Positions 34,344 to 45,329 of a DNA stretch of 64,000 nucleotides are shown piece after piece. The stretch is from NCBI RefSeq assembly GCF_017357105.1, contig NZ_CP071596.1:1860001-1924000 (forward strand), read 5' to 3'. Source of the DNA: Natronosalvus caseinilyticus (GTDB lineage Archaea > Halobacteriota > Halobacteria > Halobacteriales > Natrialbaceae). The position numbers and the translations under genes were made by a program. The notes below the pieces were generated by a model that worked only from the letters and a program-made list of their open reading frames with translations, did no database searches and had not been told where the DNA came from. Each line of letters begins with the position of its first letter. Position 1 is the first letter of the stretch.

Positions 34344-35113
34344 ACCAGATCACCGTAGCCGCGCGCGGAGGGATTTCGCTCGAGCGTGGGAATCTCGCCC
34401 GTCTCGACGAGGGCCTTGAATCGCCGAAGGGCCTTCGTCACGAGCGTGGCGGGAACGATCCCGACGCGGTTCAACGCCGCGTCACCGAGCGCCCCGCCGG
34501 CCGGGTCGAAGTTCAGATCGAGCGTGACGACCGTTCCGCGGTCCGTGGGCTCGGACCGGAACCGAACGGTTCCCCAGCTCGGGATCGCCGCGTCGTCGTG
34601 TGACTCCCAGCCGATAAACGTACCGGGCTCCGATTCGACGACCTCCGTCTTCCAGGTCCACTGCCGATCGAACGGCCCGACGATTCGCCACGTCCAGACG
34701 CCCGGATCGTCCGCGGTGACGTCGACGACCGGCCCGAGAACCCTCGTTACGGTGTCGGGGTCGCGCCACCGCTCGAAAAGTTCTTCCGGCGATCGGTCGA
34801 TCGTGATCGAACGCTCCACCGCCGGGGCCGCGCCGGAGAACCGCGCATCGGGTCTCCGATCGCCGTCCGGTTCCGACTCGAGCGGTTCCGATTCGAGAGT
34901 GGCTCCCCTCCTGTCGCGCGCCGCGAGACCCCGATAACAGAGCAGGGCGCCGACGCCCGCGGCTATCGCTCCGCCGAGCGAACGTTTCCTCAGCCCGATC
35001 GCCAGGAGCGCGCCGCCGGCGACGATGCTCGCGAGGCGCGTCCAGAAGGGTCGATCGATTGCGGTCGAACCGGTCTTCGCGGATCGGTGTTCGACGGTTC
35101 CAGATTGCGTCAT
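34340..35113 (-). CDS. SRPBCC (START-like) protein with membrane hairpin
   Basis: A 257-residue protein. Residues about 25-65 form two hydrophobic helices (ASIVAGGALLAIGLRKRSLG and onward), then a linker and an SRPBCC domain (about 95-245): SITIDRSPEELFERWRDPDT, WTWKTEVVESEPGTFIGWES and GTVVTLDLNFDPAGG. SRPBCC domains bind hydrophobic ligands. The pair SRPBCC plus zinc alcohol dehydrogenase is a recurring gene neighbourhood in actinobacteria and haloarchaea, suggesting the two act on the same small molecule at the membrane. The ATG at 35113 is chosen over one 13 codons upstream. Confidence 0.84.
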   Translation of the reverse strand: MTQSGTVEHRSAKTGSTAIDRPFWTRLASIVAGGALLAIGLRKRSLGGAIAAGVGALLCYRGLAARDRRGATLESEPLESEPDGDRRPDARFSGAAPAVERSITIDRSPEELFERWRDPDTVTRVLGPVVDVTADDPGVWTWRIVGPFDRQWTWKTEVVESEPGTFIGWESHDDAAIPSWGTVRFRSEPTDRGTVVTLDLNFDPAGGALGDAALNRVGIVPATLVTKALRRFKALVETGEIPTLERNPSARGYGDLV

Positions 35114-41742: not shown

Positions 41743-41880
41743 ACGTAAGTGCAAAATATATGTAAAAAATACTCAATATGTATGGGAATTTGCCAAGAAA
41801 ACGCCGATTCGGGAGTGCGTAAACTCCAATGCCTGGCTCGATGGCGTCACACCGACCCCGTGCTCGAGTTGACTCGAGGC

Positions 41881-41940
41881 GCGACTCGCTTCGCTCGTCG
41901 ATGTTGGGCGGTGAAAACGCGCTGGCTGGGATTTGAACCA
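41881..41940. repeat. Direct repeat copy 1 (tRNA-Gly end unit)
   Basis: A 60-base unit: GCGACTCGCTTCGCTCGTCG, 18 diverged bases, then the 3' end of tRNA-Gly (GCGCTGGCTGGGATTTGAAC and two more bases). The second copy is at 42015-42074 with the same internal spacing, 134 bases away. In copy 1 the tRNA part stops after 22 bases. Confidence 0.75.
41919..41940 (-). pseudogene. Truncated tRNA-Gly 3' end
   Basis: Twenty-two bases identical, except at the last position, to the acceptor-T-arm end of the intact tRNA-Gly at 42052-42122 and in the same orientation. No anticodon arm follows. This is a remnant of duplication or an attachment-site scar. Confidence 0.7.
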
Positions 41941-42014
41941 CGCCCGAGAACCTGTTCGCTACGCTCACAGAACCTCGGTCTGATTCAAATCCAGGGACGA
42001 TTTTCACTGAATAC

Positions 42015-42074
42015 GCGACTCGCTCCGCTCGTCGGTTTGATTCAGTGTAAATGCGCTGGCTGGGATTTGAACCC
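42015..42074. repeat. Direct repeat copy 2 (overlaps tRNA-Gly)
   Basis: Second copy of the 60-base unit: the first 20 bases differ from copy 1 at one position, the middle 18 have diverged, and the last 22 are the 3' end of the functional tRNA-Gly gene. Confidence 0.75.
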
Positions 42075-42122
42075 AGGTTGTGACCATGGCAAGGTCACGT
42101 GATACCACTACACTACCAGCGC
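42052..42122 (-). tRNA. tRNA-Gly (GCC anticodon)
   Basis: A 71-base cloverleaf on the minus strand: acceptor GCGCTGG/CCAGCGC with discriminator A, anticodon stem TGACC/GGTCA enclosing TTGCCAT (anticodon GCC), and T arm CTGGGTTCAAATCCCAG. It decodes glycine GGC/GGU. Its 3' end is repeated 112 bases downstream (41919-41940). CCA is not encoded. Confidence 0.97.
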
Positions 42123-44177: not shown

Positions 44178-44387
44178 TGGGTCACCGTCTGCCGCCGGGT
44201 ACCTTCTTAATGGAGGCTATAATGAAAAAAATCCAACCGTTTCACGGAAAAGGACCATCCTTTCCCTTTCGCTAAGCCCGCCGAACCCGGTAGCGATTGC
44301 CGCGTTATCGCGACCATTTTGTGTGCCCGAGTGTCACGAATTTGGCCCTGCGAACCCCTCACAGCCCGGAATCGAATCCGCTACCCT

Positions 44388-44394
44388 TTTAAGA
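44388..44394 (+). promoter_or_regulatory. TATA box of the SPOUT/S10 ribosomal operon
   Basis: CCCTTTTAAGAC lies about 55 bases before the ATG at 44448; a start site near 44418 gives a leader of about 30 bases. It is the best promoter candidate for the long plus-strand transcript that continues to secY. Confidence 0.5.
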
Positions 44395-44447
44395 CACTGT
44401 CCGTAACACATCGCTACAGTCTAGTGACGAGGCGCCGAAGTCGCGGT

Positions 44448-45329
44448 ATGACCGTCAGCGTGCTCGTGCCGTCGTCACTCAGCCGGGAAGCCGAGGACAA
44501 ACGCGAGGCCACTCGCAAACTCGGGTACGTCGCCCGTGCGGCGACCATCTTCCGGGCCGATCGCCTGATCGTCTACCCCGATCCAGGGGGCGACGACGGG
44601 CGATTTGGCGACGGGTTCGTCGAAACCGTCTTGCGGTACGCCGCGACGCCCCCCTACCTTCGAAAGGAGGCCTGGGGCAAGCGGGACGAACTGGAGGCCG
44701 TGGGCGTCTTACCGCCGCTCCGTGCCCCGTCACAGACCGGCTCCGAATCGAACGGTTCGGGGTCGACAAGACAAGGAATCGTGACCGAGGTCGGACCTGA
44801 AGGGCGCGTCCGGGTCAATTGCGGACTGCAACACCCGATCTCCCTCAACACACCTCCCGGAATGGAGGTCGACGAGGGGGAGCGCGTGACCGTCAGGATC
44901 TCTTCGCGACGACCGGTCCGGGCGAAACTCGTCGACGAATCCCCACCGGGATTCGCCGTCGAGCGGACGGACCTCCCGGCAGCACTCGGCCGTGAGGACG
45001 CCGGCGTTCGCATCGCGGCCTCCCGATACGGTGAACCGCTCACCGTGGGACGCCTCGAGACGCTGGCCGGACGCGTCGAACGGGACGGGATGACCGTCGC
45101 CTTCGGCGCACCCGAGAGAGGGTTGCCGGACATCCTCGGTATCGACCAGGGGGCCGTCGAGGCCGCTTACGCCGATACCGAGGACGACGCAAACGTCGAA
45201 CCCAGCGATCTGCGCACGGAAACGGGGTTCGACCTCTGGCTCAATACGGTTCCGAACCAGGGGAGCGCGGTCGTGCGAACGGAGGAGGCTCTGTTCGCCA
45301 CCCTCGCTCCCCTCTCACTGAGAGCGTGA
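44448..45329 (+). CDS. Putative SPOUT RNA methyltransferase (uridine-N3 type)
   Basis: A 293-residue protein of the SPOUT knot family that stands before uL3 in nearly all haloarchaea. Visible parts are VSVLVPSSLSREAEDKREAT, IFRADRLIVYPDPGGDDGRF, LRYAATPPYLRKEAWGKRDE, an inserted OB-like beta domain (about 105-175: VTEVGPEGRVRVNCGLQ) and the knot segment at the end with LNTVPNQGSAVVRTEEALFA. Relatives methylate uridine in rRNA; the target here is inferred. The ATG at 44448 is chosen because the upstream extension is not conserved. It ends 4 bases before uL3. Confidence 0.85.
   Translation: MTVSVLVPSSLSREAEDKREATRKLGYVARAATIFRADRLIVYPDPGGDDGRFGDGFVETVLRYAATPPYLRKEAWGKRDELEAVGVLPPLRAPSQTGSESNGSGSTRQGIVTEVGPEGRVRVNCGLQHPISLNTPPGMEVDEGERVTVRISSRRPVRAKLVDESPPGFAVERTDLPAALGREDAGVRIAASRYGEPLTVGRLETLAGRVERDGMTVAFGAPERGLPDILGIDQGAVEAAYADTEDDANVEPSDLRTETGFDLWLNTVPNQGSAVVRTEEALFATLAPLSLRA

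Follow-up and report, generated by a model that had tools for sequence, protein, structure and literature searches.

The duplicated tRNA-Gly end of Natronosalvus caseinilyticus is probably one copy of a widespread haloarchaeal repeat rather than a virus-left scar

Behind the tRNA-Gly(GCC) gene of Natronosalvus caseinilyticus, the 3' end of the tRNA is repeated at a spacing of 134 bp, and the question raised by this locus is whether the duplication records the passage of an integrative element or belongs to something else. The original prediction, made from the letters of the window (the whole 64,000-nucleotide stretch of DNA analyzed here), saw in it either the scar of a lost element or a hot spot for insertion. 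Our results indicate that it is probably one copy of a widespread haloarchaeal repeat and not the mark of a past viral insertion.

The host tRNA gene, source of the copied 3' end, occupies positions 42052..42122 on the minus strand (ARAGORN; Rfam RF00005) and is followed, in minus-strand order, by a 134-bp unit of four parts. The first, palindrome H1 (42001..42051), begins with a T-run and continues with ATTCAGT-type arms around the hairpin GACGAGCGGAGCGAGTC; it reads TTTACACTGAATC..GAGCGGAGCGAG..ATTCAGTGAAAA from 42051 to 42001 and was delimited from its sequence and from the H1 class over related loci. Next comes an inverted T-arm (41984..41992; GGATTTGAA on the minus strand), recognized from its sequence and from compensatory changes across tRNA loci, which pairs with the T-loop and T-stem of the distal tRNA-Gly copy. 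It is succeeded by a second palindrome, H2 (41940..41983), whose type, CAGACCGAGGTTCTG..AGGTTCTCGGGCGTG, recurs at other tRNA loci, and finally by the copy of the tRNA-Gly 3' end, running from the T-loop to the discriminator position (41918..41939). Beyond this copy, and likewise on the minus strand, lies half of a further H1-like palindrome (41869..41917), which belongs to the distal arm of a direct repeat.

The duplication itself is real, with 21 of 22 positions identical between tRNA and copy, while the best 22-mer match in simulated controls (50 first-order Markov windows of 64 kb) reached at most 18 of 22. The direct repeat extends further than the 60 bases first noted, spanning 71 nt (41869-41939 and 42003-42073) at 79% identity and the same spacing of 134. 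The smaller motifs that had been reported could all be located: plus-strand GATTCAAATCCAGG at 41982, GTGAAAA at 41911, TTTTCAC at 42001. The inverted T-arm, taken alone, matches at ~10 of 14 letters and is unremarkable in the window; it becomes significant only across tRNA loci, where its changes track those of the host T-arm. The 134-bp spacing, over which open frames are listed, leaves no room for an integrase or an element body between the copies. The core of the unit (41918..41996, minus strand) is matched by our covariance model R1 at 64.1 bits (E 1.2e-14), as one of the 19 sequences from which that model was built.

Elsewhere in the window, the other two tRNAs, Leu(CAG) and Ser(GCT), lack such a 3'-end copy. 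A weak R1 match at 34408-34489 (+), with 18.8 bits, an E of 0.008 in the window and no tRNA nearby, may be chance or a decayed unit. Separately, positions 44797-44896 (+) match the Rfam family RF03135 ("L4-Archaeoglobi leader") well above its gathering score; this match lies within a long open frame (44319-45329) situated immediately upstream of the uL3/uL4 genes, and an RF03135 match also adjoins tRNA-Gly at two further loci (L101 and L163).

Within the same genome, a region search returned two more tRNA loci with equal spacing, Leu(TAA) and Ser(TGA). We inspected the 3' flanks of all 44 tRNA genes in a set combining RF00005 and ARAGORN predictions, from which two of 46 ARAGORN genes (L044:1222-1351 and L020:19-144) had been dropped as spurious, and found a copy of the gene's own 3' end, at 17 or more of 22 letters and within 500 nt, behind 20 of them. 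In nearly all cases an inverted T-arm agreeing with that of the host stands before the copy, for example CGGATTTGAA at Phe, GTAGATTTGAA at Met and GCGCGATTTGAA at Lys. The 19-unit alignment, consisting of these 20 tRNAs plus Leu-TAG (14/22) minus Lys-TTT and Leu-GAG (at the latter no inverted arm was found), showed compensatory change in 9 of 15 predicted pairs. R1 recovered 21 separate units in this genome (E at most 2.4e-5), most of which built the model and so match by construction; 20 of them adjoin a tRNA, and the 21st (at 985,181) stands 21 kb behind tRNA-Pro(TGG).

Two side observations concern other sequences next to tRNA genes. Behind tRNA-Leu(GAG), ~45 bp (tgcaggtgatctcccttcgcggacatcacccacgcataatcc) unrelated to the units are kept in three congeneric species (L089, L264 and L291), perhaps as another small RNA or signal. 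At a different locus (L284; G005:C1:2400-4600), an ARAGORN tRNA-Lys(CTT) ends directly before a 5S rRNA-like sequence recognized by eye, and it probably corresponds to the tRNA-like element that has been described ahead of 5S rRNA in Haloferax.

Beyond this genome, R1 at E of at most 0.01 matched 240 of 242 Halobacteria genomes, the exceptions being G072 and G165, in a survey that scored the best 18 candidates per genome and in which many genomes reached 18. In a phylum-wide draw, matches occurred in 32 of 33 genomes of the same order versus 7 of 163 others, with 137 non-matching genomes given as a total rather than individually; the seven matches outside Halobacteria are weak (E 0.006-0.009) and come one per genome. 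The exact pattern of one H2 type was found in 33 named contigs, all Halobacteria by title and from genera including Haloarcula, Halorubrum, Halobellus, Natrinema, Halogranum and Halorientalis, and a tRNA lies within the locus in 32 of the 33. Units and their hosts were compared in 91 of 208 loci, a set in which strong units are over-represented because its members had been selected as best matches, for similarity to tRNA-Gly or by pattern; there, 129 of 134 R1 matches have a same-strand tRNA upstream, in 119 cases within 250 nt, and the other five comprise two near a locus edge and three reverse-strand readings of a palindrome. With one more match not comparable, the copied end fits its own host tRNA best, or tied best, in 122 of 128 cases, scoring on average 10.35 of 11 letters against the host versus 5.77 against other tRNAs. 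The 15-pair structure retains 89.3% standard pairs, with 202 double-changed cells versus 70 in shuffled controls and at most 98 in slid ones.

These results establish that the class-wide repeat family is real, with a close architectural precedent in Escherichia coli. Carriage by phages or viruses was considered and rejected, as phage records contained no unit and viral contigs none by four exact patterns; one plasmid record matched, an 827-kb replicon of Natronorubrum bangense. Rfam holds no family for haloarchaeal tRNA-trailing units, and a literature search with the hairpin letters returned no relevant paper. Further, we saw no description in the consulted parts of the open literature on haloarchaeal tRNA, RtT and integrases (including PMC3119063, PMC8371274 and PMC7714728), which leaves subscription journals mostly uncovered. 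The haloarchaeal family is thus apparently undescribed so far.

The ends of the units are specific to the tRNA and their interior is modular; they stand in tandem and are both gained and lost. Often two to five units of 93-173 bp follow one another, and near-identical units recur within arrays in orders such as A-B-A or A-B-C-B-C. Modules move from one tRNA species to another, also across genera, and one H2 start type, CAGGGAG, is found behind 16 tRNA species. Identity of the host-end copy is 0.960, 0.950 and 0.967 at array positions 1, 2 and 3, and we therefore rejected a decay of identity along the array, which would mean insertion next to the tRNA only; the undecayed copies could also reflect selection or detection bias.

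Turnover is evident within the genus: H1 and H2 are gained, lost and swapped among related species, and the breaks fall at the T-arm repeats. The congeneric genome G053 carries no unit at its orthologous tRNA-Gly(GCC) locus, where the join in the flank lies within the shared H1 repeat. Across 41 comparisons between the two genomes, made for tRNA genes with identical 3' ends, a unit is present in both in 13, in one in 10 and in neither in 18. H2 has been swapped with H1 kept at Arg-CCT (identities for H1 and H2, respectively, of 0.95 and 0.58), Val-TAC (0.93 and 0.57), Leu-TAA (0.90 and 0.67) and Ser-TGA (0.88 and 0.56, an ortholog pair that is less sure, with an upstream identity of 0.57), and the reverse, H1 swapped with H2 kept, is seen at Gly-TCC (0.63 and 0.95) and Met (0.50 and 0.93). 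Read by eye, the four H2 swaps diverge 0-1 nt past the inverted TYGAA. At Pro in G053 a unit appears between the tRNA and the old H1, and at Leu-TAA one appears inside an array, at the inverted T-arm. Because the layout varies among species, a fixed arrangement free of insertions is not what we found, and the idea of a hot spot survives in an altered sense: units come and go within the genus, and an integrase-bearing insert of ~21 kb lies between tRNA-Pro(TGG) and its unit.

How might such units arise and change? Our preferred reading, held with moderate confidence and built from sequence comparison, is that these are palindrome-rich non-coding units (H1, inverted T-arm, H2 and a copy of the host from T-loop to acceptor) shaped by recombination and template switching at tRNA-derived repeats. 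Specifically, short shared homologies would be provided by the 3' end of the tRNA and by the inverted T-arm, while hairpin-assisted strand slippage, together with recombination between direct repeats of 20-70 bp, would lengthen and shorten the arrays. H1 and H2 would be swapped, within and between tRNA loci, by ectopic template switching at the T-arm, which would also re-copy the host end; such switching is assumed for exchanges between loci because the homology shared there is short, ~7-13 bp. A new unit, with its leading T-run, would spare the tRNA and its likely termination signal, and we propose that units are tolerated because this T-run start keeps both intact.

The main rival holds that the units are non-autonomous mobile elements, for which a dedicated recombinase would recognize the T-loop core in both orientations and insert or exchange H1 and H2 cassettes, the candidate enzymes being a tyrosine integrase that, like IntI, works on folded sites and a single-strand transposase of the HUH type that targets the hairpins. 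We regard this as possible, if well short of likely. That the four H2 swaps begin to diverge 0-1 nt past the inverted TYGAA would fit it, as would the movement of modules across tRNA species and genera and the appearance of units at the two positions seen at Pro and Leu-TAA. However, the junctions fall just where the shared sequence stops and so offer no proof of site-specific cutting, and units were absent from phage records and, by four exact patterns, from viral contigs. The junctions leave the recombination and recombinase readings inseparable, because in both they fall where homology ends. More speculative again, and only tentatively advanced, is the extension of the recombinase idea to a tRNA-anchored, integron-like cassette system in all Halobacteria, in which a site-specific recombinase would insert and swap non-coding hairpin cassettes at the T-arm core of tRNA genes, working in either orientation and in trans between tRNA loci; the tyrT repeats of E. 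coli would then be a bacterial case of this process.

A second alternative, that the units are functional trailer RNAs kept by selection, with roles in maturation, termination or regulation as proposed for E. coli RtT, appears improbable. Consistent with it are the stable predicted fold of the whole trailer (z -5.0), the compensatory changes in 9 of 15 pairs and the occurrence of units in nearly all Halobacteria sampled. The trailer fold, however, says little, because any palindrome folds, the compensatory changes stem mostly from copying the host T-arm, and 18 of 41 comparisons with G053 have no unit in either genome. Selection on the helices as RNA should leave more G-U than A-C mismatches. 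In 116 distinct units, however, arm mismatches of the two kinds (G-U/A-C) numbered 26/27 in the T-arm helix, 8/9 in H2 and 5/5 in H1, or 39 and 41 combined, whereas 93 tRNAs, scored alike, gave 36 and 0 in their acceptor and T stems. Because A-C is as frequent as G-U in the arms while tRNA stems show G-U only, the palindromes look as though they were made and kept at the DNA level rather than selected as RNA, although the transcript may still have a role. RNA-level function as the main cause was rejected on this comparison, a verdict tempered by the count over all 15 model pairs, where G-U exceeds A-C at 115 versus 70; a single column, the innermost T-G pair, contributes 65 of the 115, and the outermost contributes 40 of the 70.

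The reading from which the inquiry began, that attL and attR of a lost integrative element remain after deletion of its body, is very unlikely. In its favor, a 22-bp repeat of a tRNA 3' end is what the classic att duplication looks like, and a true integrase-bearing insert does exist at a tRNA of this genome. Against this, the layout recurs at nearly half of the tRNA genes here (20 of 44, where a scar would be expected at one or few per genome) and in 240 of 242 genomes with the same internal anatomy, and its modules are common to different tRNA species; the scar is thus left unsupported. The insert itself is instructive. At tRNA-Pro(TGG), a genuine integrative element of ~21 kb (L292 and L293; G000:C1:963000-986700) entered between the tRNA and its unit, and the displaced unit at 985,181 is now immediately preceded by a boundary copy of the end of tRNA-Pro and by an integrase gene. 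The encoded protein is a tyrosine integrase (Pfam PF02899, E 1.9e-10, with PF00589 below the curated cut-off), and the element also carries a Prim-Pol protein. What is repeated at the boundary is the tRNA end itself, and H1 and H2 are missing from the tRNA-proximal end of the insert, from which we conclude that integrases do not leave units behind. A similar arrangement is seen at tRNA-Asp (L148), with an insertion of ~840 bp, a longer boundary copy and then tandem units. That the copies are decoy attachment sites, kept because they divert integrating elements from the tRNA, is hardly credible: copies at array positions 1-3 are 95-97% identical to the host and integrases use such ends, but the tRNA-Pro element used the tRNA itself and not the distal copy. 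As a separate observation, an 879-aa open frame in L292 (6995-9634, +) consists almost wholly of repeats like NEQEAEQEVEQENEAEQEVEDGDD and has no Pfam match.

Taken as products of recombination and template switching, the units would offer a natural assay for template switching in polyploid archaea. As a repeat class they occur at many tRNA genes in almost all sampled genomes of haloarchaea, and they can pass for provirus attachment sites in surveys of genomic islands. REP, BIME and REPIN sequences are short non-coding palindromes in arrays; the haloarchaeal units share the arrayed palindromes and are instead bound to tRNA 3' ends, with host-specific tRNA sequence. Archaeal integrases (SNJ2, pNOB8 and others) use tRNA 3' ends as att sites, according to the parts consulted of PMC8371274, and such sites also repeat the tRNA 3' end, whereas the window locus has no integrase or element body between the copies and the tRNA-Pro insert is separate from its unit. 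In Haloquadratum walsbyi, provirus insertions come with partial tRNA duplications, including 22- and 43-nt copies of tRNA ends, but those copies flank insertions of 6.7 to ~53 kb, and short tandem units go unmentioned in the sections consulted (PMC3119063).

The closest known system is the E. coli tyrT/RtT repeat. At tyrTV, 178-bp units, annotated rttR and tpr, each end in 19 nt of tRNA-Tyr; the locus yields four RtT (RF00391) matches, and the one unit examined contains, at L294:1164-1185, an inverted copy of the tRNA-Tyr T-arm (22 nt, 86% complementary). The tyrT repeats of E. coli have long been known, and RtT RNA has been proposed to act in the stringent response. Membership of our units in RtT by sequence was rejected, with no RF00391 match in the N. 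caseinilyticus genome at E up to 1 while the E. coli control matched. The two systems are alike in standing in tandem behind a tRNA, with the host 3' end at the unit end and an inverted T-arm inside, and they differ in that the E. coli case is one tRNA locus with one unit type examined, whereas the haloarchaeal units lie behind many tRNA species and have exchangeable H1 and H2. This common architecture makes the role of tRNA 3' ends as nuclei of tandem repeats testable in two domains of life.
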